A stretch of DNA of 64,000 nt, from positions 1 through 64,000 of the forward strand of contig CAJYXJ010000006.1 in assembly GCA_913778085.1 (NCBI GenBank), written 5' to 3'. The stretch comes from an uncultured Chryseobacterium sp. (GTDB lineage Bacteria; Bacteroidota; Bacteroidia; Flavobacteriales; Weeksellaceae). The notes beneath the pieces were generated by a model. It saw only the letters and a program-made list of their open reading frames with translations. It did not search any database and was not told the DNA's origin. The position numbers were made by a program, and so were the translations under genes. Shown in pieces: positions 10,229 to 60,601 of this stretch; position 1 is the stretch's first letter, and every line of letters begins with the position of its first letter.

Positions 10229-10548
10229 AATATTCTGTAAATGTATTTAACTGCAAAAGCCGCATAAGATAATCATCCTTCATTAAGTTGATTAGCAGAT
10301 CATCCAAAGCAAAAAAAATTAACTTTTAATCTCTTGAGATTTCAATTACCTCGATGCTCTGATAAAGTTTTGCGATTTGCAGTTAAATAAGTTAAAAAAA
10401 TGGCTGTAAAGTCTGAGTGAATAAGACCAAAGATTTAAATCTTTTCCTGTTTAAAAGCATGTCATTTGGTAAAAGCTCTTACCGTTAATAGCAAAGCTTA
10501 TTTTCATTCAGACTCTACAACTTATTCATTTTAAATAAAATACAAGTC
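10229..10548. other. 320-bp spacer with imperfect inverted repeat
   Basis: Separates the oxidase from the DUF3347 gene, both on -. An imperfect inverted repeat (AGTCTGAGTGAATAAG at 10410-10425 against CTTATTTTCATTCAGACT at 10496-10513) spans about 100 bp. It could be an operator region or a long-range hairpin ahead of the oxidase. No -7 box was convincing. Confidence 0.4.
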
Positions 10549-11022
10549 TTATTTAATGGTAGACTTTACATTTCCGCAGGTAAGCATCGACTTTCCGTAA
10601 TAAGGATTGGCGATCTTTGATTCGTCGCTCAGCCAGCTTCCATCGGCCATTGGGCAATACTGAACATAAACCGGACTTTCGGAAAGCTTGTATTCTTTGG
10701 CCAGGGCAATCATGTTGTCTGAAAGATTCATGAAGGTCTCTCTTTGCGTAGTAATGCTTCTCGCCTCTGAAATGGCGGTAGCATCTTTTCTTAGGATATT
10801 GAGGTTTCCTTCCGAAACTTTTTTGTAGTCAACAGCTGATGCCGTTTTGATGAATTCGGATGCAGCTTTTGAAGTTTTATCGGCATCGTCCGAAGCCAGA
10901 GCAGATTTTATGGCAATATAATTCTGATACAGCTTGGAAATCTGCGCATCTTTTTTGGACTGTGCCGAAATAGAAAGGATTGAAAATAAAGAAAATATTG
11001 CAGTGATGATATACTTTTTCAT
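10549..11022 (-). CDS. DUF3347 periplasmic protein
   Basis: 157 residues with a signal peptide (cleavage around SAQ, residue 21). It is a helical DUF3347 domain. The C-terminal family signature is visible: QYCPMADGSWLSDE, then NPYYGKSMLTCGNV. The Cys, Met and His-poor CPMA and MLTCG motifs suggest copper binding; the same domain occurs fused to CusB-type efflux adaptors in Bacteroidota. It sits between an HYC_CC_PP gene and a multicopper oxidase, all on -, which supports a role as a periplasmic copper carrier. Metal binding itself is inferred. Confidence 0.88.
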   Translation of the reverse strand: MKKYIITAIFSLFSILSISAQSKKDAQISKLYQNYIAIKSALASDDADKTSKAASEFIKTASAVDYKKVSEGNLNILRKDATAISEARSITTQRETFMNLSDNMIALAKEYKLSESPVYVQYCPMADGSWLSDESKIANPYYGKSMLTCGNVKSTIK

Positions 11023-11125
11023 TGTTTAAATTTTAGGATTAATTTTTTTAATTAAATATTTTAGAAACCGCATGATGCGACAAACCGTGTCGTATTTAAT
11101 AATAACATTAAACGACTGACAGATT

Positions 11126-11503
11126 CTAAATCCTAAAATGACAATGGGTAATAAAAATGGGAACCGGCCGTATTTCAGGCGGTGCGTTGATTCGTATCTG
11201 AAGAAATTTGGTAGCGGAAAAAGAGGGGTCTGCAACTAAAAATTCGTGCCGTGAAACCTCATAAATCTGTTTTAATAAATCAATTTTAAGAAAATCCGAC
11301 TTTTGGGAATCGTCAACTTTTACAACTTTGATTTCGGTTTTACAGCAGTCTTTTTTTGTTTTTACACCGCATTTGCTGCATATATCTTCTGCATTACGGC
11401 TGACGGACGCCAATTCATTCATACAATAATGAACGCTGAACACCGCTCCGGACGAAAATCCGAAGTAGAAAACAGAGAACAATATGGCAAGAATTTTTTT
11501 CAT
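11126..11503 (-). CDS. HYC_CC_PP family small secreted protein
   Basis: 125 residues from the ATG at 11503; an in-frame extension upstream to 11593 lacks signal-peptide character and was not used. A signal peptide is followed at once by HYC (His25-Tyr-Cys27). Next come a CSKC pair and the double cysteine DCCKTE near residue 60, and a C-terminal APPEIRPVP segment. These are the three marks that name the family. The Cys/His content suggests metal handling; members are commonly found beside TonB-dependent receptors and copper genes, as here. Exact function is not known. Confidence 0.82.
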   Translation of the reverse strand: MKKILAILFSVFYFGFSSGAVFSVHYCMNELASVSRNAEDICSKCGVKTKKDCCKTEIKVVKVDDSQKSDFLKIDLLKQIYEVSRHEFLVADPSFSATKFLQIRINAPPEIRPVPIFITHCHFRI

Positions 11504-11576
11504 TGGAACAAAGTTAAAAATTATCCGCGGTATTTCTGTTATAAAATTTTGTACAGTTGTTATAAAATATGGCAAA

Positions 11577-11607
11577 TGAAAAACTCCCGGCATTCCGGGA
11601 GTTTTTC
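11577..11607 (-). terminator. Terminator of the TonB-dependent receptor gene
   Basis: AAACTCCCGG cattc CCGGGAGTTT forms a strong GC-rich stem with A/T tracts on both sides. It is placed about 50 bp past the receptor stop and could work in both directions. It suggests the HYC_CC_PP gene has its own promoter. Confidence 0.8.
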
Positions 11608-11655
11608 ATTTTATTTCATCAGGATACCAAAGCAGCCTATTGATTAAGTTGTTTG

Positions 11656-13902
11656 CTATTTAATTTTAAATTCAAGCTTTACATTAAAGAAACGTCCTGT
11701 TAAACGGACCGGAACCGGATACATCAGGTTTGTATTGGCATCTGTAATCCATTGGTTGGCTACCGTATTTCTGATATTAAAAGCATTGAACACCTGTACG
11801 CCTAAGGTAAGCTCATCAAAATTGCCCCAGAAACCATAAGCATTATTTTTTTCTTTAGGATCTATAAATACGTAGGAAAGACCCAGATCTACCCTTTTAT
11901 AGGAAGGCAGCGTTTTCTGATAAGAATATCCCGCGAAATAATCGATCTTCCGATTTTCATCCAGCACGATCGGAGATCCTGTAGGCAATCCCATCGCATA
12001 AACCAGAGTAAGATTTACGCGCATTTTTGGAAATTTCGGCATATAATCCTGGTAGAACATCGCAAAACGGAGCCGCTGATCGGTCGGTCTCGGAATATCG
12101 CCTCTTCCATCGATATTTTCATAAACGCGGGCGTAACTTGCCGACAGCCAAGAATCAACACCGGGAACAAATTCCCCGAATAACCGGGTATCGATTCCGT
12201 ATACATATCCGGAAGCGTTGTTCTTACCGGAATAACGGATCCTTACATTATCCATAAAGTACGGAATAAGGTCGTCCATTTTTTTGTAATACAATTCCGT
12301 GGTCAGCTTAAACGGCCGGTCATACATCTGGAACTCGTAGTCATTGGCCAGAATAGCCTGAATAGATCGTTGGGATTTTATATTCGGGTTGAAATTCCCG
12401 TCGAGATCTTTGATTTCTTTATAAAACGGTGCCTGGTAATAAATCCCTCCCGAAAGCCTGAAAAGCATATCGGTATCCCAATCCGGCTTAATCGCAAACT
12501 GTGCCCTCGGAGAGAAGATGGTTTCGTTGTTGAAACTCCAGTGTGCTACCCTAGCTCCCGCATTTAAAAAGACCTTATTGCTTCCCCAGAAAAACTTTTG
12601 TGAGTATTGTGCATAGGCAGACATTCTTGTAGGCTCTATATTGTTTTTGCCCGAAATGCTGTAATACAGCTGTAGATCCGGCGGGTTTCTCGGATCTAAG
12701 AGTGCCGAAATCGGTGTGCTGTAGCCTGCAGAATCCACCAGCTTCCATTCGTTGGTAAGGTCTTTAAGGTTTTCCTTTTCGTATTTGAATCCTACTTCAA
12801 TATCGGTGTTTACATTGGGTGAAAACCGGGCTCTGGCCTGGGTTCCGTATGTTTTTACAAAAAGGTCATTCCTGGCATGCTCGATCTGGCCACCGGTATC
12901 ATATGATGTAACAGGCGCTCCTGTAACCGGATCAAAGGTCTGTAGGACATAAGCCGAAGCAATAGAATAGTATTCCCGCTCCCGGTTCTGATAGGCAAAA
13001 GCATCCAGCGTAAACCTCCATTTGTCTGAAGGCTTGAAGTTCAGGGAGAACGTTCCCATCATATTTTTATACTTGTCATCCTCACGGCCGCCGTAATTAA
13101 CGGTAAGGTTGATGGGCTGCTGTAAGGAACCGAAGTCGATGCTTCTTTCTTTCGGGATCATTTCATAATCGTTCTTCGAATAATATCCGATAAACGACAT
13201 GGTAAGTTTCGGGTTGAAATGGTAGTTGAGATACGTCTGGAAATCCATGTATTTCGGATTGAAATCGGTATCTTCATTCAAAGTATTCAATACCAGATTG
13301 GTATTGCGGTATCTTCCTGAAAACAATGCGGTAAACTTTCGATTTCCGTCACCATCTTTTCCTGCAGCAAAGCCTGTCGTCAGCCGTCCGCCAATTAAAC
13401 TCCCTTCGCCGGCTACCTCGAATTTTTCCGGTTCGCGGTAATAGATGTTAAGAGCCGAAGACATTTTATCGCCGTATCTGGGTTCAAAACCTCCTGCCGA
13501 AAAGTTTACGGTGGAGACCATATCCGGATTGATAATACTTAAACCTTCCTGTTGGGAATTCCGGATCAGGAAAGGTCTGTAGATTTCAATATCGTTGATG
13601 TAGATCAGGTTTTCATCATAGTTTCCGCCACGAACCATATATTGTGAAGAAAGTTCCGTATTGGAGTTTACGGACGGTAAGGTTTTAAGGATTCCTTCGA
13701 TTCCCCCGGAGATACTGGCCACATTCTTCGCATCTTTCGCCGAAATTTTTACAGCGGTCATATCGTTGGTGCTTCCCGTCACTTTTTTCTGGAAAACGAC
13801 TTCTTCGATGCTTGCGGTTTTCATTGTATCCTTCTTCTTTCTTACCTGAGAGAATACTAACGCGGGAACCATAAGGCTCAATGGTAAAACTAGTTTTTTC
13901 AA
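11656..13902 (-). CDS. TonB-dependent outer-membrane receptor
   Basis: 748 residues. A signal peptide (about 1-18) is followed by a plug domain at about 50-190 containing VRGGNYDENLIYIND and FEPRYGDKMSS, typical of TonB plugs. The rest is a beta-barrel rich in Tyr and Asn ending in FFNVKLEFKIK. The carboxypeptidase-like N-terminal extension common in Bacteroidota receptors is missing, and no SusD partner is adjacent, so this is not a SusCD pair. It lies just upstream of HYC_CC_PP and DUF3347 genes. Inference: it takes up, or responds to, copper or a metal chelate; the substrate cannot be read from sequence. Confidence 0.9.
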   Translation of the reverse strand: MKKLVLPLSLMVPALVFSQVRKKKDTMKTASIEEVVFQKKVTGSTNDMTAVKISAKDAKNVASISGGIEGILKTLPSVNSNTELSSQYMVRGGNYDENLIYINDIEIYRPFLIRNSQQEGLSIINPDMVSTVNFSAGGFEPRYGDKMSSALNIYYREPEKFEVAGEGSLIGGRLTTGFAAGKDGDGNRKFTALFSGRYRNTNLVLNTLNEDTDFNPKYMDFQTYLNYHFNPKLTMSFIGYYSKNDYEMIPKERSIDFGSLQQPINLTVNYGGREDDKYKNMMGTFSLNFKPSDKWRFTLDAFAYQNREREYYSIASAYVLQTFDPVTGAPVTSYDTGGQIEHARNDLFVKTYGTQARARFSPNVNTDIEVGFKYEKENLKDLTNEWKLVDSAGYSTPISALLDPRNPPDLQLYYSISGKNNIEPTRMSAYAQYSQKFFWGSNKVFLNAGARVAHWSFNNETIFSPRAQFAIKPDWDTDMLFRLSGGIYYQAPFYKEIKDLDGNFNPNIKSQRSIQAILANDYEFQMYDRPFKLTTELYYKKMDDLIPYFMDNVRIRYSGKNNASGYVYGIDTRLFGEFVPGVDSWLSASYARVYENIDGRGDIPRPTDQRLRFAMFYQDYMPKFPKMRVNLTLVYAMGLPTGSPIVLDENRKIDYFAGYSYQKTLPSYKRVDLGLSYVFIDPKEKNNAYGFWGNFDELTLGVQVFNAFNIRNTVANQWITDANTNLMYPVPVRLTGRFFNVKLEFKIK

Positions 13903-14094
13903 AAGAAATGTTTTAAAATTTCAAACGTGAATATATAAATTTTATTTTAACTTATTTAAACTTTCTTTAACATTTACGCATGTTACTATCCTGCTGTATT
14001 TCCTGAATTTTCAAGATAATCAGCACATGAGAATTGCTGTTGGTTTAAATCAATGTTAAAAAAAACAAATTACCGCTTGGAAAAAATGAATAAA

Positions 14095-14904
14095 TTATAA
14101 AATGGATTCCCTTACTCTTGTTAATTTCTGTAAAAGATCTTCCAACAGATCAAGTCGCAACATATTGGCACCGTCGGATAAAGCAGTTTCAGGTGTTGGA
14201 TGGGTTTCGATGAAGATTCCGTCTGCTCCAACAGCGATTCCTGCTTTGGCTACGGTTTCGATAAGATCCGGTCTTCCTCCTGTTACCCCTGAACTCTGGT
14301 TCGGCTGCTGTAAAGAATGGGTAACGTCCAGAATCACGGGTGCATAATTCCTCATGGTCGGGATCCCTCTGTAATCCACAATCAGATCCGTATATCCGAA
14401 AGAATTCCCTCTTTCGATGATCGCTACTCTCGGATTACCGGAATCCGTAATCTTCTGAACGGCAAATTTCATCGATTCAGGAGATAGGAACTGCCCTTTT
14501 TTCAGGGAAACACATTTTCCGGTTTCGGCAGCGGCTACCAAAAGATCCGTCTGGCGAACCAGGAACGCCGGAATTTGAAGCACATCTACATATTGCGCAG
14601 CCAAAGCTGCATGTTCGTTTTCGTGAATATCTGTTGTTGTAGGAATATTAAAAGTCTCTCCTACTTTTTTAAGGATTTCGAGCGATTTTTCTTCACCGAT
14701 TGTCGTAAAAGAATCCACCCGGCTGCGGTTGGCTTTCTTGAAACTTCCTTTAAAAATATAGGGAATGTTGTATTTGTTAGTGAGCTCCACTACCTTCTCT
14801 GCAATTTTCAGAGCCATGTCTTCGCCTTCGATGATGCACGGGCCGGCAATCAGGAAAAAATTTTTTGAATCTTTGTGGTGAATGTTATCTAAATACTGAA
14901 TCAT
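14095..14904 (-). CDS. kdsA: 3-deoxy-8-phosphooctulonate synthase (KDO-8-P synthase)
   Basis: 269 residues, normal length for KdsA. The enzyme condenses phosphoenolpyruvate with arabinose-5-phosphate to KDO-8-phosphate, the first dedicated step of lipid A core KDO. Visible marks are AGPCIIEGEDMALKIAE near the N-terminus, FKGSFKKANRSR (substrate binding), DIHENEHAALAA, and VTGGRPDLIETVAKAG with the C-terminal ETHPTPETALSDGANML. The next KDO gene, kdsB, lies separately at about 36.3 kb on the same strand. Confidence 0.96.
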   Translation of the reverse strand: MIQYLDNIHHKDSKNFFLIAGPCIIEGEDMALKIAEKVVELTNKYNIPYIFKGSFKKANRSRVDSFTTIGEEKSLEILKKVGETFNIPTTTDIHENEHAALAAQYVDVLQIPAFLVRQTDLLVAAAETGKCVSLKKGQFLSPESMKFAVQKITDSGNPRVAIIERGNSFGYTDLIVDYRGIPTMRNYAPVILDVTHSLQQPNQSSGVTGGRPDLIETVAKAGIAVGADGIFIETHPTPETALSDGANMLRLDLLEDLLQKLTRVRESIL

Positions 14905-30343: not shown

Positions 30344-31264
30344 TTGAAAGTTTTCAGGAATTTTAACGAATATACTTCTCAAAAGCCCCTGGCATTGTCT
30401 CTGGGCATGTTCGACGGGGTTCATCTCGGCCATAAAAGCATTATTGATGAGCTGATAAAGGTAGGTGGAGAAAATCATCTGGAAACCGCAGTACTCACGT
30501 TCTGGCCGCATCCCAGGTTTGTTTTTAACCCGTCTGAAAACCTGAAACTGCTGAATACCCTTGAGGAAAAAACGTTTTTAATGGAAAAATACAGCATTGA
30601 AAACTTATTTCTTAAAGAATTTGATGAAGAATTCAGGAATTTGACCGGTGAAGAATTTGTACGGCAGATCCTGGTTGAAAAGCTGCACGTAAAATACCTG
30701 ATTATAGGCTACGACCATTCTTTCGGGAAAAACAAAAGTGGGAATTTCGAATTGTTGCAAAAACTTTCAGAAGAACTTGATTTTGAAGTAGAACAGATGG
30801 AAGCGATCAACATCCATGAAAATAACATCAGCTCGACTAAAATCCGGAAAGCCCTGCTGGACGGAAATATCCGGGAAGCCAACGAAATGCTGGGATACTC
30901 CTACTCCGTTTCCGGAACGGTAGTGCATGGAAAGAAAATCGGCCGGACCATTGGTTATCCAACAGCCAACATTGAAACCGACTCTATTAAACTATTACCG
31001 AAAAAAGGAGCTTATATTGTAGAAGTTTTTGTTAAAGATCAGCAATATAAAGGAATGCTGAGCATCGGCACAAATCCTACCGTTAACGGAGAAAAATTAA
31101 CCGTAGAAGTATACATCCTCGATTTTGACGACGACATTTACGACGAAAAAATCACCGTGAAATTCCGGGATTTCCTTCATGATGAAATTAAATTTGAAGG
31201 TTTGGAAAAGCTGATTGAAAGATTAGATGAGGATAAAAGACTGACGGAGGAATTCCAGTTTTAA
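30344..31264 (+). CDS. ribF: Bifunctional riboflavin kinase / FAD synthetase
   Basis: 306 residues. The N-terminal FAD synthetase part has LGMFDGVHLGHKS near residue 20 (nucleotidyltransferase HxGH) and SSTKIRKAL near 165. The C-terminal riboflavin kinase part has GRTIGYPTANIE near 205 and TVNGEKLTVE. It makes FMN then FAD in the cytoplasm. I place the start at the TTG at 30344 (KVFRNFNEYT) because the family begins there and the promoter lies just upstream; a longer open reading to 30278 runs through the promoter. Confidence 0.95.
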   Translation: MKVFRNFNEYTSQKPLALSLGMFDGVHLGHKSIIDELIKVGGENHLETAVLTFWPHPRFVFNPSENLKLLNTLEEKTFLMEKYSIENLFLKEFDEEFRNLTGEEFVRQILVEKLHVKYLIIGYDHSFGKNKSGNFELLQKLSEELDFEVEQMEAINIHENNISSTKIRKALLDGNIREANEMLGYSYSVSGTVVHGKKIGRTIGYPTANIETDSIKLLPKKGAYIVEVFVKDQQYKGMLSIGTNPTVNGEKLTVEVYILDFDDDIYDEKITVKFRDFLHDEIKFEGLEKLIERLDEDKRLTEEFQF

Positions 31265-31265
31265 A

Positions 31266-31296
31266 ATAAAAAACCGTATAAAGCCATACGGTTTCT
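31266..31296. terminator. Convergent terminator after ribF
   Basis: AACCGTAT aaagcc ATACGGTT forms an 8-bp stem; the minus strand shows the stronger T-run. It serves ribF (+) and the GLPGLI gene (-). Confidence 0.75.
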
Positions 31297-31336
31297 TGTG
31301 ACGGATCAATCCTGCGATTTTAAGCTATTTGATATT

Positions 31337-32152
31337 TCAATCTTCTAATTCAATAGGATTATGTCCTTTTTTTTCTGTACTAACTGCTTTTTGTCTTTCT
31401 TTTTGATTTTGGGAAAATACGGTACCCATACTTTCCAATTGATATCTGGCATTTTCTCTAAAATTTGTTCTTGCCTGAGATAACTCTTTTTTAGTAACAT
31501 TCTTAGAGTTCTTATAGTACCTTTCACTTACGGTTACTACCTTACCTTTTAATTCAGAACTTGAGGTCGATTTTACCAACTCAAAATCGTAATCTCCCGT
31601 TTTATCTGTAATTTTTATAATTAATCCGGGAAGGCCACTGAATTTATAGGGACCAAAAGGAAAAGGAATCTCAGTTGCATACCAGGCGGTCCAGTCTCTT
31701 CCTTTATAATGTACCTCTGCTTTTTTGCAAGTAATAGAATTAATTACTTTTTTTTCATCAACAAGTTTCCAGTTATTAATAATAGGACTATCATAAGATA
31801 ACAAAGTCATTCCTACCGACTCATAAAATTGTGAATGATCAATTGTTTGGATAATCAAAAAATTAGATTTTGAAACTGGGATATCGCTCAAATCAATAAC
31901 GTCCTTATTCTTATTGTATTTTGCCATGAAAAGAGAGTCAAATTTCAATGCATTTTCACTGATAAAAAAAGCACGGTTATTGCCTATTTGTAATGAATAG
32001 AGTTCCTGATTTACATAGTCCTGATTGAGAGTATTAGGCTTGTACTTAAGTAAATAGGTAAATTCTCCTATTAATGAATCCTTATTGACAGTCTGAGAAA
32101 ATACAAAAGAGAAAATAAATAAGAATACAATGTTTAAAAATTGGTTTTTCAT
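31337..32152 (-). CDS. GLPGLI family secreted protein
   Basis: 271 residues from the ATG at 32152 (an ATG 9 bp upstream is also possible). A signal peptide ends near FVFSQT. The mature protein shows the family pattern: CKKAEVHYKGRDWTAWYATEIP near residue 150, followed by the name-giving FSGLPGLIIKI near residue 180. The family is confined to Bacteroidota and its function is unknown; members are often next to TonB receptors or peptidases, which is not so here. Low-GC composition compared with neighbours. Confidence 0.9.
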   Translation of the reverse strand: MKNQFLNIVFLFIFSFVFSQTVNKDSLIGEFTYLLKYKPNTLNQDYVNQELYSLQIGNNRAFFISENALKFDSLFMAKYNKNKDVIDLSDIPVSKSNFLIIQTIDHSQFYESVGMTLLSYDSPIINNWKLVDEKKVINSITCKKAEVHYKGRDWTAWYATEIPFPFGPYKFSGLPGLIIKITDKTGDYDFELVKSTSSSELKGKVVTVSERYYKNSKNVTKKELSQARTNFRENARYQLESMGTVFSQNQKERQKAVSTEKKGHNPIELED

Positions 32153-32368
32153 AAAATTCATACTTCATTTAAAAAAAAACCGTCCAAAAAACTTTATTTC
32201 CATCCGTAATTACTGGAGTTTTAATAAATAAACAAAAAACGTAGACGTATGTTTATTTAGTTTTACCAAATTTAAAAGATGTCAAAATAATTTTTTGAAC
32301 GGTTAATATTATCAATTTAGATTAATATGATTAATCCAGGTAAGCTACTTCATTCAGTTATAAAATAA

Positions 32369-32689
32369 CTAAGGAGTATATGGGCTATCATACATACAAT
32401 AATTGTTTTGAATCTGCTGTCCCCAGTTAATCCATTGATCTGCTGTCCAATCCTGACAGGTATAAGCTGATGTACAAGTTACAACCACTGTCGCACATTG
32501 TACTCTTTTTGTTGCTTTATTTTTTAAAGTTGTTTTATTCTTATCTTTTGAAACAACTTCCTTTTTTTCTTTTGAAAATGATTCTTTCTTATTTTCTGAC
32601 TTTCCATCACTTTCATATTTTGCAGAAATTGTATTTGCACTTACAGCTCCCGCGATCAAAATTCCCGTTAATAAAATCATTTTTTTCAT
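32369..32689 (-). CDS. Small secreted Cys-containing protein
   Basis: 106 residues. A signal peptide (cleavage around SANTISA, residue 23) is followed by a strongly charged Lys/Ser/Glu linker (residues 25-65). The C-terminal part has four cysteines: VQCATVVVTCTSAYTC and NNYC. This resembles a family of short secreted proteins seen in Chryseobacterium, with no established function. Disulfides in the periplasm or outside are likely. It stands alone between AT-rich spacers. Confidence 0.7.
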   Translation of the reverse strand: MKKMILLTGILIAGAVSANTISAKYESDGKSENKKESFSKEKKEVVSKDKNKTTLKNKATKRVQCATVVVTCTSAYTCQDWTADQWINWGQQIQNNYCMYDSPYTP

Positions 32690-32891
32690 TGTAATAAATT
32701 TTTATTGTTATTAAAATTTTGTTTAAACTCTTGCGCAATTGTTTCAACATTTCAAAGAAATAAAAAAAAAAGAAAAAAGCAATATCAATTATCAACATTT
32801 ATTGAAATATTTGTTATGTTAAATACAAATACAAATCATTGTAAATCAAATATTTAAACACATAAATATATCTCATTAAAATGATTTAACA

Positions 32892-33242
32892 CTATTTTAA
32901 CAACTCTATTTTTATTTTTTTCGTCAGTGATTTAAAAATCAAATCATAGGAATGATCAATCATCTGAAATATCAAATCTCTTTTTAAGCCGTCAAGAGAT
33001 ACAGAATTCCAATGGGTCTTGTTCATGTGATAGGCTCCGGTAATCTGCGGATATTGCTCACGAAGCTCGGTGCTCCATTCCGGATCCGTTTTCACGCTGA
33101 TTTGTAGCGGTTGTCTTTCCAGTGACATCAGCAGAAACATTTTTGTTCCCACCTTCATTACCAGTGTTTCATTATCGAAAGGAAAGCTTTCGGTTATTCC
33201 TTTTTTGGCAAGGCAATAGTCTAAGATTTCGTTGGCATCCAT
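32892..33242 (-). CDS. MmcQ/YjbR family protein
   Basis: 116-residue single-domain protein of the MmcQ/YjbR (DUF419) family, a DNA-binding-like CyaY fold. Visible marks are ILDYCLAKKGITESFPFD near the start, LVMKVGTKMFLLMSLE, and MNKTHWNSVSLDG in the centre (HWNSV is the typical W). The role is not known; it is cytoplasmic and monocistronic. Confidence 0.9.
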   Translation of the reverse strand: MDANEILDYCLAKKGITESFPFDNETLVMKVGTKMFLLMSLERQPLQISVKTDPEWSTELREQYPQITGAYHMNKTHWNSVSLDGLKRDLIFQMIDHSYDLIFKSLTKKIKIELLK

Positions 33243-40245: not shown

Positions 40246-40857
40246 TTAATTTAAAAGTTCAATTTTTAAATCCGGCAATCTTTTTTTTAACTCAATGATT
40301 TTTAACTGAAGGTCATTCTGATCAAAAATAGAATCGCCAAAAATTTCCCCGTTGATCTCAAAACTGATGGTTGTAAAATCTTCGGATGAATCAGTTTCTG
40401 TAATTTCTCTAAAAACAGTCTTTCCATATTCAAAAATAAAATGCCCGGATTTTTTATTACAGACGGTTTTTAATTCGCAACGATCAGAAACAGCATTAAT
40501 AACTGTCATTCCGACACGGCAAAATTCATCGCCGACCTCAAGATGTTTTTTTTCGTTGCTGCATGCTCCGATTTTTGTCATAATGCATTCGGCTTTAGTG
40601 AGATCGTAAGATTCTTCCAGAGACATTCCGGCATCATATTTTATATACAATGAATTGAACTGAGCATTAATAACTATTTCGCCACATTTATTATCAAAAT
40701 ATTCATCGACTGCATGACAAAGAGCTCCAGACACGAGAGAATTCAAATTGTTCTCCTTAAAACAATCTTCAAAATACATTTTAGGACGAAGCCTTACATG
40801 ATCCATCGGATCAATTGCATATAATGGATATTCGGCGTATAATTTTTTCTCTTCCAA
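40246..40857 (-). CDS. Stand-alone GyrB-like GHKL ATPase domain, degenerate
   Basis: 203 residues from a TTG start. The whole length aligns by eye with the N-terminal ATPase domain of GyrB/ParE: VRLRPKMYF (21-29, for VRKRPGMYI), GALCHAVDE (44-52, for EVVDNAIDEA), YDAGMS (74-79, for DDGRGI), AECIMTKIGA (89-98) and CRVGMTVINAVS (113-124, for GVGVSVVNAL). The transducer and TOPRIM domains are absent. The catalytic Glu and Mg-binding Asn of motif N1 appear to be Gly and His, and the GxHGxG lid is altered, so ATP hydrolysis is doubtful. It ends a six-gene array, 8 nt after the GIN lipoprotein. Function unknown. Confidence 0.72.
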   Translation of the reverse strand: MEEKKLYAEYPLYAIDPMDHVRLRPKMYFEDCFKENNLNSLVSGALCHAVDEYFDNKCGEIVINAQFNSLYIKYDAGMSLEESYDLTKAECIMTKIGACSNEKKHLEVGDEFCRVGMTVINAVSDRCELKTVCNKKSGHFIFEYGKTVFREITETDSSEDFTTISFEINGEIFGDSIFDQNDLQLKIIELKKRLPDLKIELLN

Positions 40858-40865
40858 TTTCTGAT

Positions 40866-41567
40866 TTACTCTAATTTTTTATTCTCCACCCTGGTATCTT
40901 TATCTATTTTAAACGCCCGGATCGGATCATTATAATAGATAAATTTTGCGGTATTCTGAACATGTCCTTTCAGGGAATCTTTTACGTTTACTTCTGCATA
41001 ATTTCCGTTTTTGGAATCGATCTTCAGGTTTTCGATTTTCCAGTAAGGGGCGATCAGGCTTGCCGTGTCGGCGATTTTGATCACCGCGTCTTTGGTCTGT
41101 CCGAGAAAGTTGGCTCTGCTGCGGTTCAGCATTTCCACTTCTGCCCTTCTTGTATTTACCGAACCCATAAAAGTAGCGAAATTCTTTAAATTAAGCCTAA
41201 AATTATCGGTCTTAATTTCACTGGAAATGTTCATCTCTACTGAGTCGGAAATGGCCACTTTTTCCAGATTGTATTTCGAGTAAATCGTGACATTATAAAA
41301 ATCCACGCTTTTTGTTCCACGTTTTTCTTTGATGGTTAACGTTTTATCATCCACTTCAACATCCAAATTATCCGCAACATTTGGATAGGTTTCTATTTCC
41401 ACGAAGTTCTTATTCCCTCTTGCATAAAACACCCGGAATTTCCCTTCCAGATCGAGGTTTACAAATTCCGGCACATCCACATCTTTCCGCTCGATATTTC
41501 CTTTTTGAGAAACTTTTCCGCAGGAAACCAGAGCAACTAAAAATAATATATAAAATATTTTTTTCAT
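40866..41567 (-). CDS. Head GIN domain (DUF2807) lipoprotein
   Basis: 233 residues with a lipobox LVSCG near residue 17. The rest is a repetitive right-handed beta-type GIN/DUF2807 domain: VPEFVNLDLEGKFRVFYARG near the start, VEIETYPNVADNLDVEVDDKTLTIK, and later ladder-like Asn/Ser/Ala strands. It is a Bacteroidota envelope lipoprotein family of unknown function. It starts 5 nt after the stop of the PD-(D/E)XK-like gene and ends 8 nt before the GyrB-like gene. Confidence 0.85.
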   Translation of the reverse strand: MKKIFYILFLVALVSCGKVSQKGNIERKDVDVPEFVNLDLEGKFRVFYARGNKNFVEIETYPNVADNLDVEVDDKTLTIKEKRGTKSVDFYNVTIYSKYNLEKVAISDSVEMNISSEIKTDNFRLNLKNFATFMGSVNTRRAEVEMLNRSRANFLGQTKDAVIKIADTASLIAPYWKIENLKIDSKNGNYAEVNVKDSLKGHVQNTAKFIYYNDPIRAFKIDKDTRVENKKLE

Positions 41568-41572
41568 ATCGA

Positions 41573-42085
41573 CTAAACTATAACAATATTGGTTTGCATA
41601 TCGATTCTAAAACCATGTTCTTGCTGAAAAGATTTTTTAAATTCATTATCAATTACAACAAATTTTCCTTTCTTTCTGTTATTACAACCAAATACTTTTT
41701 TATGGACAAACAATTTCAGTTGTTCAGGATGAAATTCTTTTAAAAAATTAATTGTACTTACAAGCTGACCAAGCATCTCACCACTATTCAAACTTTTTTT
41801 ATCTTTTAATTCTACCAAATATAAATGTTTATCAGTAGTCAACATTCCTTCACATCTTCCTCTTCCTTTAAATTCATGATCCTGAATAACACATTTATCA
41901 ATAGCTATAAACATAATATCATAACCTTCCCCATTATTTCCTCGATCATTTATAACTTCTGCCTGCCAGATCTCTTTATTGTTTTCAATTATATATACAG
42001 GAGTTCCGTCTTCATTGTCATATAATCCGAAATTCTTTTTATTCTTTGGAACCTGTATAAACTTTTCTTCAAAAAAATTTATCAT
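41573..42085 (-). CDS. PD-(D/E)XK nuclease-like protein paired with an ATPase
   Basis: 170 residues with no close relative that I recognise. The central block reads CEGMLTTDKHLYLVELKDK (residues 78-96): Glu79 or Asp85, then Glu92-x-Lys94 after a hydrophobic strand, followed by Gln107 in a helix. This is the layout of the PD-(D/E)XK nuclease fold. Its ATG overlaps the ATPase stop by 4 nt (ATGA), so the two proteins are made together. Inference: a nuclease or nucleic-acid-binding effector run by the ATPase, as in two-gene anti-phage systems; not matched to a named system. AT-rich. Confidence 0.6.
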   Translation of the reverse strand: MINFFEEKFIQVPKNKKNFGLYDNEDGTPVYIIENNKEIWQAEVINDRGNNGEGYDIMFIAIDKCVIQDHEFKGRGRCEGMLTTDKHLYLVELKDKKSLNSGEMLGQLVSTINFLKEFHPEQLKLFVHKKVFGCNNRKKGKFVVIDNEFKKSFQQEHGFRIDMQTNIVIV

Positions 42086-43314
42086 AATTGTTCTTCCAAT
42101 TCTAACAATTTATCAAAAATTTCATTACTTTTTTTCAATCCTTTATTCAAAAAATTATCATCTGATGGAATTCCTTCAAAATTAGGGAGCAATCTCAAAG
42201 TCCCATCCTCTTCATTCATTTCATAAATTGAGATTTGATCGGGATTAATTAGCAGATCAACAGTTAATAGATTATCTAAATCATTTAAAACCTGTTTGTT
42301 TTCATTTTTCTTAGCTTTGTTAAAAAGATTATAGGCTTCAATCATAATTCCTAGAAAACTTATTAAATACGGACTATGAGATGTAATGATAAGCTTATTA
42401 CCCGGAATCTTATTATTAATAGATATAAGACTTTTAATAATTTCAAGTTGAGAGGAAGGAAATAAATTCTGTTCAGGTTCTTCAACAATATTAAAAAAAA
42501 CTTCTTTATTAAATTTCGCAGATAGTGCGGATATTGCTAATCTTTTTTGCTCATCAGTAAGGTTTTTATCTTTAGATATTGCCTCCACATTTTGACGAAA
42601 TCTATACTGCTGATCGTTATTCATACGATTTGATTCCCCAGATCTGAATTTTACACTCTGACTCAAATAATTTGAAACCATAAAAAGTGGAACCGATGAT
42701 TGAAATCCACTAGAAGATTCTGAAAGAAGTATTTTGTAATCTTTTCCAATTAGATTTACAACATCTAAATATTCATCATAGCTTACTAAAAGATTATTAA
42801 TTGGAAAATTGAGCGCATTATTGATAGTCTTTTTAGCATGATCAAACTCTGTCAGGAATTCGTTCAAAGCATCTGAAGCAAGCTTAAGTTCCTTGGCTGT
42901 TCTGACATAAGAAATAAAATTTCTTTCGGCTGGAACATACATAATTTGTGGAAGCTGGTAGCTAGTGTTTAATCTAAAAACAATTTTTAAAATATCTTTT
43001 TCAAATTTAAAATGATAAGCTTCACCAATATAGTCAATAACCGTTTCCTCATGCGCAGAAATATAATTTTCTAATCTATGATAAGTTAAAAAATCTTTTC
43101 TGAATCTATATTTTTTTTCCAACCATTCCTCATTAAAGTCACCTCTGGTCAGAGCCTTTTCAATCCACATAAATGTAGAAATTAATTTAGCTATTGTACT
43201 TTTACCGGATCCTTGATCACCTATAAAAATTGTATTCTTAGAAATTTTAATCCATCCCTCATTTTCAAGCAATCCTTCTTTTATAGGCCCAAAATTTTTA
43301 ATTCTGATCTTCAT
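42082..43314 (-). CDS. AAA (ABC/SMC-type, AAA_15/21-like) ATPase
   Basis: 410 residues. Walker A is GDQGSGKST at 32-40, an ABC-like signature is SESSSGFQS near 198-206, Walker B is FFNIVEEPE at 273-281 (Glu278, Glu279), and the H-loop is TSHSP near 311-315. The start KIRIKNFGPI and the YVPAERNF segment at 126-133 are typical of RecF/OLD-like ATPases of abortive infection and repair. It lacks a fused TOPRIM or HNH domain, so the nuclease function must come from its 4-nt-overlapping partner. It begins 12 nt after the GT2 stop. Likely a defence-type or DNA-end sensing ATPase. Confidence 0.85.
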   Translation of the reverse strand: MKIRIKNFGPIKEGLLENEGWIKISKNTIFIGDQGSGKSTIAKLISTFMWIEKALTRGDFNEEWLEKKYRFRKDFLTYHRLENYISAHEETVIDYIGEAYHFKFEKDILKIVFRLNTSYQLPQIMYVPAERNFISYVRTAKELKLASDALNEFLTEFDHAKKTINNALNFPINNLLVSYDEYLDVVNLIGKDYKILLSESSSGFQSSVPLFMVSNYLSQSVKFRSGESNRMNNDQQYRFRQNVEAISKDKNLTDEQKRLAISALSAKFNKEVFFNIVEEPEQNLFPSSQLEIIKSLISINNKIPGNKLIITSHSPYLISFLGIMIEAYNLFNKAKKNENKQVLNDLDNLLTVDLLINPDQISIYEMNEEDGTLRLLPNFEGIPSDDNFLNKGLKKSNEIFDKLLELEEQL

Positions 43315-43326
43315 AGCTAAATATTA

Positions 43327-44277
43327 TTAAATTACTTCATCAATATTGTAATTCTTGTGCTCCCGGTTGGTTCTGATAATCATTTCTCCTAAAAATCCGG
43401 CTACGAAAAGCAGGGTTCCCATAATCATCATCGTTAAAGCAATGAAAAACCATGGGTTGTTGGTAATCAGATGTCCGTATATTCCCCTAGCGACATCAAT
43501 AAGCTTGGAAAGGCCCAGCCAGAGTGCCGAAAGAAAACCGACAATAAACATCAGGGTTCCTACGGCTCCGAAAAAGTGCATCGGCCTTCCTCCGAAACGG
43601 CTGACAAACCAAAGGGTAACCAGATCCAGAAAGCCCCGGATGAATCTTTCGGTACCAAACTTTGAAGTTCCGTAAGGCCGTGCCTGGTGCTGAACCTCTT
43701 TTTCCGTAATTCTTCTGAAACCCGCATTGGCAGCCAAAACCGGAATGTACCGGTGCATATCACCATAGACATCAATCGATTTTACCACCTGTCTTTTATA
43801 AGCTTTCAATCCGCAGTTGAAATCGTGCAGGTAAACACCTGAAACCTTTCTTGCCGCTGCATTGAATAGCTTGGAAGGTACGTTTTTCGTCATCACATTA
43901 TCGAAACGTTTCTTTTTCCAGCCGGAAACAATGTCATAATTCTCATTGATAACCATAGCATACAATTCCGGGATTTCTTCCGGAAAATCCTGCAAATCAG
44001 CATCCATCGTGATGATAACATCGCCGTTCGTGCGTTCAAAAGCGGCGTGAAGCGCCTGGGATTTCCCGTAATTCTTGGAAAATTTAATTCCGTGAATCTG
44101 AGGGTGCTGAACTTTCAGGTTCTCAATGATACTCCACGATAAATCCGTACTCCCGTCATCGACAAACCATACTTCATAAGACAAGCCGTTTAACCGGCAC
44201 ACGTTATCAATCCTGGAAAAAAGTTCCTCTAAAGAAGCCTCTTCGTTCAGTAACGGAATAACTATAGATAAATTCAT
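43327..44277 (-). CDS. Glycosyltransferase family 2, polyprenyl-phosphate type
   Basis: 316 residues. GT2 core: LSIVIPLLNEEASLEELF, the DXD equivalent DADLQDFPEE near residue 94, and KAYKRQVVKSIDVYGDMHRYIP near 160. Two C-terminal membrane segments (about 232-255 and 275-297) anchor it, as in the GtrB/ArnC/DPM1-type enzymes that load a sugar onto polyprenyl phosphate. It follows DUF4199 by 17 nt and is followed 12 nt later by the ATPase gene, so all may be cotranscribed. Confidence 0.93.
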   Translation of the reverse strand: MNLSIVIPLLNEEASLEELFSRIDNVCRLNGLSYEVWFVDDGSTDLSWSIIENLKVQHPQIHGIKFSKNYGKSQALHAAFERTNGDVIITMDADLQDFPEEIPELYAMVINENYDIVSGWKKKRFDNVMTKNVPSKLFNAAARKVSGVYLHDFNCGLKAYKRQVVKSIDVYGDMHRYIPVLAANAGFRRITEKEVQHQARPYGTSKFGTERFIRGFLDLVTLWFVSRFGGRPMHFFGAVGTLMFIVGFLSALWLGLSKLIDVARGIYGHLITNNPWFFIALTMMIMGTLLFVAGFLGEMIIRTNREHKNYNIDEVI

Positions 44278-55140: not shown

Positions 55141-55329
55141 CGGACGTGCAATCAGAACTTCAATCTAAACCGTATTCTTGAGACTTTAACAGTACTTTTT
55201 GGCTGTCCGCTGTAAACTTACTATAGATCTACCTTGCTTAGTTTCTTCAGATTTTCATATGGTTCTGATTTGGTGATTTTGAAGAAAACGAATTACAGCA
55301 TCGATTTCAATTAAATTATCAGCATTTAT

Positions 55330-55364
55330 TTAAAAAAAGAAAGCCATACAAAATCTGCATGGCC
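55330..55364 (-). terminator. Terminator of the TonB-C-like secreted protein
   Basis: GCCAT and ATGGC form a short stem of 5 bp with an 11-nt loop; the minus strand continues TTTTTTTAAATAAA. Weak stem but good T-run. Confidence 0.5.
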
Positions 55365-55390
55365 ATATATAAAAATTTTATGAATGTTTT

Positions 55391-55795
55391 TTATCTGTTG
55401 TTAATTTCTACCGTTACAGGCATTACATAGGTGTAAGCCACCAGATTATCATTAAGTTTGTTGCGATCTACTTTATAATCAAGTTCACTTAATACCGTTT
55501 CGATTTCCTTACTTACGCTTTCGCAGTCACCACTGGAGTGAACATTTATAATTTTTCCTTTTTTAGAAATATCAAACTTAACGATTGAATTTACCATCCC
55601 TTGCTTATAATCGGTATTCGTAAAATCAAAATTATCCATTAAACGGGTCCTTATGTCATTGAACGTATCACTTTTGGTAAGCTGAACTTCCTGAATGGTA
55701 TTATTGGTAGAAGTCTGTGCTTTAACCATATTTACCACAGTCATCATCCCGAAAACAAAAAAAGAAGCAATGCATATCTGAATTTTATTTTTCAT
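55391..55795 (-). CDS. Small secreted protein, TonB-C-like
   Basis: 134 residues with a signal peptide (cleavage near VKAQ, residue 27). The mature part SIVKFDISKKGKIINVHSSGDCESVSKEIETVLSEL resembles the TonB C-terminal strand-helix arrangement (V-x-F-x(2)-x-x-G-x-I), here without a PxP linker or TM anchor. The role is not known. Confidence 0.7.
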   Translation of the reverse strand: MKNKIQICIASFFVFGMMTVVNMVKAQTSTNNTIQEVQLTKSDTFNDIRTRLMDNFDFTNTDYKQGMVNSIVKFDISKKGKIINVHSSGDCESVSKEIETVLSELDYKVDRNKLNDNLVAYTYVMPVTVEINNR

Positions 55796-55998
55796 AACTC
55801 TCTGGTTTTAAATGTTGTCTTAAACTTTTTTACTAACTCTTTACCAAAGATATACAAAATAATTCATATTAATTTCACATTCAGTTAACATTGAGTTAAC
55901 ATTGGAATTTAAATATCTGATTTTCAGTATTATATTTTTTTGAAATAAGTGAAAATTTAATATTGGGAAGTTAAAAATTTTAATAAATAGCCGAAAAA

Positions 55999-56814
55999 TT
56001 AAAGACATGATATACCCAAGAGATCCATTTCCGAGCTCCAAAGTAAATGAACTTTGTTTTTAGGGTCTATCTCAAAAACATTTCTATCAGGAAACTGATA
56101 CTCGGAATTCGAATTTTTTATATACCATTTAAAATCATCATAATAGGAAAAATATAAATTTCCATAATTAGCAAAGATGACCGGTTTATATTTTTCTGAA
56201 CCATGTACCAGATGCGTTCTGTCCTTTGAAATCATTTTTTTGAATAACCTGTTAATTGTAGAATAATCTTTGCCATATATTAAAGGAATCTTTTCTCGTG
56301 AGGCTAACAGAGGGTTACCTGTTATATTTTTATTTACATCTAAAATGTAAGCAACATAATCATTATCGCATTCGCCGGATTTAAAAACAACTTTTTTTAC
56401 CTTGCACTTCTGAAATGATTTTGTTCCATATATATAAAAGTTTTCACTAATCTTATTTTTAAAAATATCTTCAAATCTTTTGTTGTATATCAATTTTTCT
56501 ACAAAAAGAGTATCATAGTATTTATAATCTTTCATATCTTTTCCATAAATCCACGGAGTCGAATCTTTTATAATAAATTCTCCGTATTCACGAGAAAAGG
56601 GCAGATCCTCATTATCAAACTGAACAGGAATACAGATCGCAAAATCTTTATCTGTAATCTGATAAACTCCGAAAATAGAGTCTTTATTGAAATTATAAGG
56701 TTTTTCTGACGATACATCCTTATGTTCCTTATAAGATCGAATAGAATATTCCTTTTCTTTCTTACAGGAAAGCAACAAAGAAAATATTCCCAAAATAAGT
56801 ATATATTTTTTCAT
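55999..56814 (-). CDS. Lipoprotein of unknown function
   Basis: 271 residues from the ATG at 56814. A signal peptide with a lipobox (LLSCK) near residue 16 and then a basic linker. The mature protein is Tyr- and Asp-rich and beta-leaning, with no motif recognised. AT-rich and flanked by spacers, so it may be an accessory gene. Confidence 0.75.
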   Translation of the reverse strand: MKKYILILGIFSLLLSCKKEKEYSIRSYKEHKDVSSEKPYNFNKDSIFGVYQITDKDFAICIPVQFDNEDLPFSREYGEFIIKDSTPWIYGKDMKDYKYYDTLFVEKLIYNKRFEDIFKNKISENFYIYGTKSFQKCKVKKVVFKSGECDNDYVAYILDVNKNITGNPLLASREKIPLIYGKDYSTINRLFKKMISKDRTHLVHGSEKYKPVIFANYGNLYFSYYDDFKWYIKNSNSEYQFPDRNVFEIDPKNKVHLLWSSEMDLLGISCL

Positions 56815-57104
56815 AGAAACTTTCAATTATTGTAAATAATATCTATTCCTTAGATATCTGAAACATGATGCATCAAATATAGAAAAACAGAAAAAATAAA
56901 TGACCCACCAAAAAGAAATTTGAAATACCTTAAAACCAAAAGAATCTTCCGTCTTTGTTTGCGAATAAGTAAAATCATTAAGTTTTGAATTTAAATGATA
57001 AATGATAAGAAAAAATATTCTTTAACTAGCAGCAATAAATTCAAAAGCAGAAGAAAAATAAAATTGAAAATAATGAGTTTTTTCATTGTATCCTTTTAAT
57101 ATTA
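56815..57104. other. AT-rich spacer
   Basis: About 290 bp upstream of the lipoprotein gene with no coding potential; a 67-codon open reading across 57022-57225 overlaps the following gene's end in another frame and is not supported. Confidence 0.4.
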
Positions 57105-57141
57105 AAAAATAAAAAAAGGAATCTGCATTCACAAATTCCTT
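57105..57141 (-). terminator. Terminator downstream of the two-span membrane protein
   Basis: AAGGAAT and ATTCCTT form a 7-bp stem; the minus strand continues into a long T/A-run. It lies about 20 bp past the stop at 57161. Confidence 0.7.
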
Positions 57142-57160
57142 ATTATGATCAATATGATAT

Positions 57161-57760
57161 TTAAAATTCCTCAATAATTCTTTTATTCTCCAGTTCATCA
57201 ATAATAAATTTAGCATCACTTTCACTGATGTATTTCATCTCATACAGCCGGTGAATCCTGCTGATCTGGATATGAACCGGAATCAAATTATCTATCCTGT
57301 AATATTCTTTTAAGAAAAATTGCTTTTTATTTTCTTTTATATCTGAGATAAAAGCGTCAACTTCTCCCATTTCTTTTTTAGCATAGGAAAAGATTAAGGG
57401 TTTGGATGCTGCAAGACTTTTAGCATTTTCTCGTCTGAATTCATTATTGCATAATCCCGTCACAATAAGAGAAGGTAACATTGCGATAATGAAAACGACC
57501 ATTCCTATGGTCTTGGAAAATTGATAACTTTCATTTATAAAAATGGTAAATAATATCGAATTAATAAGCATTGAAATAACGATTCCTATCAATACCGGAT
57601 CCTTCTTTTTTCTGAATACCGTTTCATCAAACTGAATATCAGTAAAATAAATTTTGTACTCATTTATTTCTTTCGCAAAATTATTCTTTACAAATAATCC
57701 GTCCTCCTGAATTTCAAAATATTTTAAATTCCGCCCATCTTTTTGCGTTAATGCTTTCAT
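57161..57760 (-). CDS. Two-span membrane protein of unknown function
   Basis: 199 residues with two hydrophobic segments (about 59-79 and 89-108). The C-terminal cytoplasmic part is helical and charged, ending in ESDAKFIIDELENKRIIEEF. No family recognised. It begins 9 nt after the uvrA stop and is probably in the same transcript, though no functional link is evident. Confidence 0.75.
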   Translation of the reverse strand: MKALTQKDGRNLKYFEIQEDGLFVKNNFAKEINEYKIYFTDIQFDETVFRKKKDPVLIGIVISMLINSILFTIFINESYQFSKTIGMVVFIIAMLPSLIVTGLCNNEFRRENAKSLAASKPLIFSYAKKEMGEVDAFISDIKENKKQFFLKEYYRIDNLIPVHIQISRIHRLYEMKYISESDAKFIIDELENKRIIEEF

Positions 57761-57769
57761 CTGAAAATA

Positions 57770-60601
57770 TTACTCTAATTCTCTCTTCAAAAACTTCCCT
57801 GTCAAACTTTTCTTCGATTTTACGATTTCCTCTGGAGTTCCCTGGGCAACGATCTGTCCGCCATGTTTTCCGCCTTCCGGACCAACGTCGATAATATGGT
57901 CTGCCAGTTTGATTACATCCATATTATGCTCGATGATGATGAAAGAGTTTCCAAGTTCCACCAGTTGGTTAATCGCATCCATCAGGATTTTTACGTCTTC
58001 AAAGTGTAGCCCGGTAGTTGGCTCATCCAGGATGTATAAAGTATTTCCGGTTTGTCTTTTGGCCAGTTCGGTCGCCAGTTTGATCCGCTGCGCTTCCCCT
58101 CCGCTTAATGTCGTGGACTGCTGACCTAACGTGATATAACCTAATCCAACATCCTGCAGGGTTTTTACTTTGGTGAAGATCTTCGGAATAGGCTGGAAAA
58201 ATTCTACAGCTTCATCAATCGTCATATCCAAAACATCGGAGATCGATTTTCCTTTATATCGGACTTCCAGAGTTTCACGGTTAAAGCGTTTTCCGTTACA
58301 GGTTTCGCAGTGAACATACACATCCGGCAGGAAGTTCATCTCAATAACTTTCAAACCGCCGCCCTGACAGGTTTCACACCTTCCGCCTTTTACATTGAAG
58401 GAGAATCTTCCCGGCTTGTAACCCCGGATCTTAGATTCCGGCAGTTCTGCAAAAAGGTTCCTGATGTCCGTAAACATCCCGGTATAAGTAGCCGGATTGG
58501 AACGCGGGGTTCTTCCGATCGGAGTCTGGTCGACATCCACAATCTTATCTATATGTTCAAGACCCTCAATTTTTTTATATGGTAAAGGTTCCTGGACCGC
58601 TCTGTAAAAATGTTTATTCAGAATCGGATATAATGTTCCGTTGATCAGGGAAGATTTTCCGCTTCCGGAGATCCCGGACACCACGACCAATTTACCTAGA
58701 GGAATATCCAGTGTTACGTTTTTAAGGTTGTTTCCCGTCGCCCCTTTCAGAATAATATGCTTTCCGCTGCCTTTGCGTCTTTCCGCAGGAATTTCAATCT
58801 TCCTCTTTCCATTGATGTATTGGGCCGTTATCGTATCGGCTTTTACCAGATCTTTCGGTTTCCCCTGCCATAAAATCTCCCCTCCGAACTTCCCGGCTCT
58901 CGGACCAACATCCAGCACCTCATCGGCTTCCAGGATCATATCTTTATCGTGCTCTACGACCAAAACGGAGTTTCCGATATCCCGAAGGTTTTTTAAAGAA
59001 TTGATCAATCTCTCGTTGTCTCTCTGGTGAAGCCCGATACTTGGTTCATCCAGAATGTACAGGACATTCACCAGCTGTGAACCGATCTGCGTGGCCAGAC
59101 GGATCCTTTGGGATTCGCCTCCTGAAAGCGTTCTTGAACTCCTGCTCAGGCTCAAGTAATCCAGACCGACATCCAGCAGAAACTGAAGCCTGGTTTCGAT
59201 TTCTTTTAAGATTTCGTGAGCGATGATGGCATTTTTTTCCGAGAATTTATCTTTAACATCGGCCAGCCAGTCTTTCAGGTCGATCAGGCTTAGAGCATTC
59301 ACCTCGGCAATATTTTTACCGTCGATCTTAAAGCTTAAGCTTGATGGCTGGAGACGAGTTCCTTTACATTCCGGACAGGTTTCTTCTGTTGTAAAATGTC
59401 TTTCCAGCAGGATCGCTTCGTAGGATTCCCTTTCTTCGATAATTTCTTCCATAAAAGAAATCAGGCCATCGAAGCTGATCTTGATTTTTTTGGTGATCCC
59501 CGCGTATTTCAGGTCTTTATTGAATTCCTTGTGACAACCGTTGTACATATAATCCAATGCTTCCTCCGGAATATCCTTCATCGGCGTGGCCATAGTCAAC
59601 CCAAAAATCTCAAGAATATTTTTGATCTGCGCCAGAATCCATTTATTGGATTTCAGATCTTCCAATGGCAATAAGCCTCCCTGGTTGATTGAAAGTTTCG
59701 GATTGTCTACAAAATAATCGGTATTAATCTTTTTGATCGTTCCCAGTCCTTTACAGCTGGGACAGCTTCCTTTCGGAGAGTTGAAGGAAAACGTATTCGG
59801 TTCGGGTAAAGCTAACGAATGACCGGTTTCGGCATCCATTAGGTTTTTAGAAAAATATTCGATTTCCGTACTCCCCAGCTTTTGAATCCCAATCAGGCCT
59901 TCTCCCATTTCCATGGCGGTGCGTAACGATTTTTCCATTCTGGCTTCAGAAGCAGACTCACCGATGATCCACCGATCGATCACGATATCGATATCATGGG
60001 TTTTGTAACGGTCCAGTTTCAAATCGTATTCAATATCCTGCAGCTCACCGTCAATTCTTGCCTGTCCGTATCCTTTTTTGGCCATCTGCACAAAAAGTTC
60101 GTGGTAATGCCCTTTTCTGGCTCTTACCACCGGTGCCATCAGCATGATTTTATCGCTTTTATAATTTTGCTTAATGGTTTCCAGGATCTGATCTTCCGTA
60201 TAGCTTACAAGTTTTTTTCCGGTTGTCTGCGAATACGCATCAGAAACCCTCGCAAAAAGAAGACGGAGGAAATCGTAAAGTTCGGTTACGGTTCCTACGG
60301 TTGAACGCGGGTTTTTGTTCGTGGTTTTCTGCTCAATAGCAATCACCGGAGACAATCCCTCGATCTTATCAACATCTGGACGTTCGAGCCCTCCCAGAAA
60401 CTGTCTTGCATAGGCAGAAAAGGTTTCAATGTAACGGCGCTGGCCTTCCGCAAAAATCGTGTCGAAAGCCAGAGACGATTTCCCACTTCCCGAAAGTCCG
60501 GTAATAACGACCAATTCATTGCGCGGGATTTTAACGTTGATGTTTTTAAGGTTGTGTTCACGGGCTCCGTAAACTTCAATATATTCTGTTGATTTACTCA
60601 T
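57770..60601 (-). CDS. uvrA: Excinuclease ABC subunit A
   Basis: 943 residues from the ATG at 60601 ([19 protein letters not shown]); an in-frame upstream extension is not family-like. Two ABC ATPase units: Walker [15 protein letters not shown] near residue 31 and [13 protein letters not shown] near 640; signature [12 protein letters not shown] and [12 protein letters not shown]. Zinc-binding [11 protein letters not shown] near 410 and CETCQGGG ... CETCNGKRF near 740 complete the UvrA pattern. It finds DNA lesions and loads UvrB in nucleotide excision repair. Cytoplasmic. Confidence 0.97.

Follow-up and report, generated by a model that had tools for sequence, protein, structure and literature searches.

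What do the two overlapping genes at positions 41,573 to 43,314 of a 64,000-nucleotide (nt) stretch from an uncultured Chryseobacterium sp. do (contig CAJYXJ010000006.1; the whole stretch is hereafter the window), and do they belong to a described antiviral system? One gene encodes an ATPase, the other a small protein, and PADLOC-DB 2.0.0 already lists such a pair as the candidate PDC-M29 (PDLC04562, PDLC04563, PDLC04564). We consider it probable that the two genes work as a single functional unit belonging to this family, with an OLD/AriA-like sensor ATPase and a PD-(D/E)XK effector that act in phage defense. An initial annotation, made from the DNA letters alone, had described the pair correctly in strand, protein lengths and overlap of its open reading frames (ORFs). 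The features referred to below are:

42082..43314, minus strand: ATPase gene, PDC-M29A-type, ABC/OLD family, 410 amino acids (aa) (ORF list, PADLOC, Pfam, conserved motifs)
41573..42085, minus strand: small-protein gene, PDC-M29B-type, probable PD-(D/E)XK nuclease, 170 aa (ORF list, PADLOC, motif, AlphaFold)
42082..42085, minus strand: 4-nt overlap between the ATPase stop and the start of the small gene (ORF coordinates)
41810..41812, minus strand: Glu92 codon in the small-protein gene, at the start of ExK (position derived from the ORF start; invariant in 29/29)
43327..44277, minus strand: glycosyltransferase family 2 gene, upstream flank, outside the system (Pfam; 12 nt from the ATPase start)
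40866..41567, minus strand: DUF2807 lipoprotein gene, downstream flank, outside the system (Pfam; 5 nt past the small gene)

The assignment to PDC-M29 covers both proteins over nearly their full length. The ATPase matches PDC-M29A at residues 2-409 of 410 (profile positions 3-409 of 410; E-value 4.4e-165, 547.9 bits), and the small protein matches two PDC-M29B models (1.2e-45 and 1e-42); the genes are adjacent, and we found no difference from the listed candidate. The family is therefore not new, and its kind is already in print: a 2026 survey of BREX loci (PMC12839542) cites earlier reports and describes OLD-ABC ATPases that also pair with HNH, PD-(D/E)XK, or PIN nucleases as proposed back-up effectors. 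The OLD-ABC ATPases paired there with PD-(D/E)XK restriction endonucleases have the same architecture as the window pair, a comparison made by description and not by sequence. Thus, the initial suggestion that the pair fits no described system is not supported. PDC entries are unpublished candidates according to PMC11811056. Neither the name PDC-M29 nor five sister names, nor any functional test of such a pair, was found in the literature searched, which was covered mostly at the level of listings.

Profiles of the named systems are remote from the ATPase. The second-best profile overall, and the best to carry an established system name, is AriA of PARIS (6.4e-15), which likewise combines an ABC/OLD ATPase with a small, separate effector. 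However, the score to AriA is 53.8 bits as against 547.9 to PDC-M29A, and the small protein has, at the sequence level, no Toprim match (Pfam, E <= 1) and carries an ExK motif. Septu resembles the pair in joining an OLD-like ATPase (PtuA, E 7.5e-10) to a nuclease partner. That partner, PtuB, has an HNH nuclease domain (PMC12409363, in a passage on retron PtuB), whereas the window's small protein has, again at the sequence level, no HNH match (Pfam, E <= 1). Gabija shares the OLD-type ATPase core (GajA, E 4.2e-8) but differs in that the 410-aa protein has no Toprim match and no helicase was found among the scanned flanks (DUF2807, a 203-aa protein, the glycosyltransferase).

The ATPase itself carries the motifs of the OLD/RecF class of ABC proteins: Walker A (GDQGSGKST, residues 32-40), an ABC signature (SSSGFQS, 200-206), Walker B (EEPE, 278-281), and an H-loop (TSHSP, 311-315). 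These motifs, read from a single sequence in the initial annotation, are not chance resemblances, as G37, K38, S39, S201, S202, G203, E278, E279, E281, H313, S314, and P315 are invariant in 27 aligned ATPases. Two Pfam families match the protein beyond their curated cut-offs (AAA_15, 3.5e-12; AAA_21, 3.6e-8), and a profile built from the 27 sequences reaches the solved chains of the OLD nuclease 6p74, PtuA, and AriA.

The small protein contains a (D/E)...ExK motif with a later Gln, as in PD-(D/E)XK nucleases, formed by C78-E79 and E92-L-K94. Across 29 aligned partners, C78, D or E at position 79, E92, and K94 are each present in 29/29 and Q107 in 27/29, divergent partners included. With hhalign, 23 close small proteins are joined to six divergent ones at 97.9% (E 2.1e-12). 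No Pfam or NCBIfam model matched the protein over any cut-off, and among PADLOC models Cas4_II gave a match at 1.8e-4. AlphaFold alignments were built from sequences of the window and its related loci. With six sequences, the model has a strand-strand-helix-strand-helix-strand core at low confidence (predicted local distance difference test, pLDDT, 51.5), and its best Foldseek match has E 0.02; Mus81, XPF, and Hef, nucleases of DNA repair, are among the weak matches. With four sequences, pLDDT was 42.1 and the Foldseek rows were mostly Ras-like and non-significant (best E 0.11). A PD-(D/E)XK nuclease fold is suggested by these models and not demonstrated; of the motif and fold proposed initially, the motif is firmly conserved and the fold a weakly supported prediction. 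A profile comparison with home-made Cas4 and Shedu sets was uninformative, as even these established nuclease families failed to detect one another.

The pair is real, conserved, and under purifying selection. A search of 395 genomes of the phylum gave 23 matches to the ATPase profile, spread over 21 genomes, and 19 to the partner profile, spread over 18. Far from homologous ATPases always lacking the small partner, 21 of the 23, window included, have it directly downstream, and the two genes are rarely separated, as expected of the two-gene unit proposed at the outset. One of the 21 (G024) has a stop inside the ATPase frame, and in another genome (G197) an ATPase fragment adjoins a partner fragment. 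A single full-length M29-type ATPase stands without a partner (G284 contig 8; L139, region 9168-14572); in the same region, a divergent second ATPase-partner pair lies about 2.4 kb upstream of it, and a methyltransferase-like gene is nearby (by eye). Another gene near this lone ATPase, read by eye as a NotI-like enzyme, was dropped for want of a Pfam match at 0.1. Within the genus, 11 of 174 genomes encode the ATPase at E <= 1e-60, five of them as distant forms (207-218 bits). All 11 have the partner; the partner profile by itself detects five, and the remaining partners are divergent with Cys-Glu and ExK kept (by eye).

Over 22 pairs, ATPase and partner distances correlate at 0.875 (maximum 0.396 in 5000 permutations), in part because of shared descent. 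The ratio of non-synonymous to synonymous substitution (dN/dS) is 0.07-0.25 for both genes against three relatives, a rough figure for two of the three since dS exceeds 1. The offset of -4 between the genes recurs in 18 of 24 listed pairs, the others having -11, -10, -10, +1, +2, and +4. One locus (L164, G427) is mosaic, with an ATPase 69.7% and a small protein 88.8% identical to those of the window, which suggests recombination inside the pair.

Where the pair sits was followed through 30 loci, window included; these were retrieved from among 59 genomes with a match, 60 having been searched. The glycosyltransferase-DUF2807 junction (window 41568-43326) is variable in the genus. In 4/30 loci it has no insert, the DUF2807 gene starting 1 nt after the glycosyltransferase stop; 17/30 hold 414-1154 nt of other sequence (by eye zinc-ribbon membrane, lipocalin-like, and small membrane proteins); the ATPase pair occupies it in three, including the window; and in six the fetched sequence did not extend to the glycosyltransferase. 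A sister genus (L136, ~70% identity) and L026 also have the pair at this junction. Against the window, a congener (L027) has a glycosyltransferase 94% and an ATPase 56% identical, and the sister genus has values of 88% and 69%. Pair identities are therefore out of step with those of the flank and, in L164, with each other, which favors exchange at a common site over a single recent acquisition. The window pair sits at a variable spot between housekeeping genes and not in a defense island. As first annotated, it is more AT-rich than its surroundings (GC content 0.284 against a mean of 0.390, standard deviation (sd) 0.039, for segments of the same size, 2.2% of which are equally AT-rich). Acquisition had been proposed on this basis; the AT-richness stands, and a recent insertion or exchange is not established, given the pair at the same junction in the sister genus.

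All four genes from the glycosyltransferase to DUF2807 lie on the minus strand. Between 40800 and 44400, sigma-70-like sites number 23 on both strands as against 14.1 (sd 4.0) in shuffled sequence, and one 9-of-12 match ends at 43323, just ahead of the ATPase gene; a pattern scan of this kind does not settle transcription. Terminator-like sites are not enriched in the same interval (2 vs 2.3 in shuffles), and RNA folding at the gene junction is unremarkable (z -0.01). Elsewhere in the window, 31200-33000 and 55200-57800 match the AT-richness of the pair and hold, by eye, small secreted, lipoprotein-like, or hypothetical genes. The 203-aa gene at 40246-40857 is 82.8% identical to its counterpart in the otherwise near-identical locus L025, compared with 95-98% for seven compared neighbors. 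By eye we take it to resemble a short GyrB-like ATPase part, with no support from Pfam.

Gene neighborhoods in some other genomes connect the family with restriction. The 20 fetched ATPase regions together with L026, L027, and L049 gave 23 loci, 19 of which were used (L125, L137, L139, and L140 were excluded). A type I restriction (R) subunit gene lies within four ORFs of the pair in 5/19 loci (E 1e-205 to 1e-130). In three of these five, a specificity (S) gene stands on the opposite side (by eye), and Specificity_I was matched by 3/109 neighbors. A single genus in the phylum set contributes four of these five loci; the lineages represented thus number at least two. This per-locus result derives from 10 chosen neighbors that were scanned, three of them without a match. 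One pair (L133, G212) is flanked by a type I S gene (assigned by eye), a gene with a Macro domain (E 3.2e-19), and a gene for a type I R subunit. On a Persicobacter plasmid, a type III R gene is found near the pair.

A broader scan compared 109 of 141 chosen neighbors with 109 of 119 controls drawn from elsewhere in a subset of these genomes. At 1e-15, neighbors matched 303 PADLOC families and controls 43, counts of families and not of independent genes. Controls also held defense-type matches (HEC-01, a type III methyltransferase), and type I R genes are not proven to be missing from them, the contents being known for the first 25 families of each list. For these reasons we prefer the per-locus result. 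As to the neighborhood survey that the initial annotation proposed, restriction genes flank the pair in some other genomes, though not in the window.

Relatives also occur in viruses. Two IMG/VR contigs (L052, L053) carry divergent ATPase-partner pairs among structural genes (by eye), like accessory cargo. Both came to light through an ATPase alignment; viral searches with the close pair proteins, and one with a divergent partner, gave no relative, and two later searches recovered one known contig again. Microcystis phage Mic1 encodes a full-length ATPase homolog (L047:3995-5233; PDC-M29A E 1.8e-187; 41.5% identical over 98%) in which EEIE replaces EEPE. The partner profile had no match at E <= 1 in the 92,627-base Mic1 genome, a search made without a positive control and hence weak proof of absence.

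How might such a pair work? In PARIS, as related in PMC12409363, a hexamer of AriA sequesters AriB until a phage trigger frees AriB, which cuts tRNA. This worked example, the pairing and back-up proposal in PMC12839542, and the candidate status of PDC-M29 lead us to expect a sensor-effector unit. By this logic the ATPase, an OLD/AriA-like ABC sensor, would multimerize and hold the small protein, a putative metal-dependent nuclease of PD-(D/E)XK fold. Upon phage infection a trigger, probably a product of the phage or harm done to a restriction system in the same cell, would change the state of the ATPase and free or activate the nuclease. The latter would then cut nucleic acid, most likely DNA, and so may halt the infection, probably at a cost to the cell.

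It is also possible that the pair is not free-standing and serves solely as a back-up to restriction, firing when phage anti-restriction proteins disarm it, as PARIS does with Ocr. The five type I loci, three with a specificity gene by eye, and the type III R gene on the plasmid are consistent with such a role, as are PARIS logic and the back-up-effector proposal; BREX recruits PARIS-type modules, according to PMC12839542. However, the immediate neighbors in the window and in congeners with the pair at the same site are not restriction genes, and all but one of the five type I loci belong to a single genus. We think it improbable that the genes are a toxin-antitoxin or addiction module in which the ATPase holds a toxic small protein and persistence needs no defense role. 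Overlapping genes, patchy presence (11/174 genus genomes), relatives on a plasmid and in phage, and the finding that 0/19 partner matches lie away from an ATPase match, as an addiction toxin would require, agree with that reading. The recurrence of restriction genes as neighbors, the size and strong conservation of the ATPase, and the one full-length ATPase without a partner argue against it.

Membership of the ATPase in the RecF/OLD class, together with the weak fold matches to Mus81, XPF, and Hef, could also be explained by a Rad50/RecF-type pair for DNA repair or recombination, with a junction-cutting partner and no part in defense. We give this little credence, because rarity in the genus, relatives on plasmids and in phages, and other cargo at the congeners' site are unlike a repair core gene. 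Roles might also be reversed, the small protein being a degenerate, nuclease-like sensor or adaptor and the ATPase the effector; inactive restriction-endonuclease-like domains do serve as sensors beside NTPases (PMC12839542). This too seems quite unlikely, as all 29 partners, the divergent ones included, retain (D/E)79, E92, and K94, the putative catalytic residues. A phage-defense unit of sensor ATPase and nuclease effector remains our preferred reading.

A bolder and rather doubtful extension is that PDC-M29 is a further branch of PARIS logic, in which a restriction-linked OLD-ABC sensor frees a DNA-cutting PD-(D/E)XK nuclease once phages disarm restriction; the lone Mic1 sensor might then be a decoy that blocks a host's pair. 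For the family, a catalog entry for which no mechanism was found becomes a specific pair with named putative catalytic residues and a likely division into sensor and effector, and its recurring restriction-gene neighbors predict a trigger. Should the pair prove to work, it would show that sensors of the AriA type can be coupled to effectors as different as Toprim, HNH, and PD-(D/E)XK.
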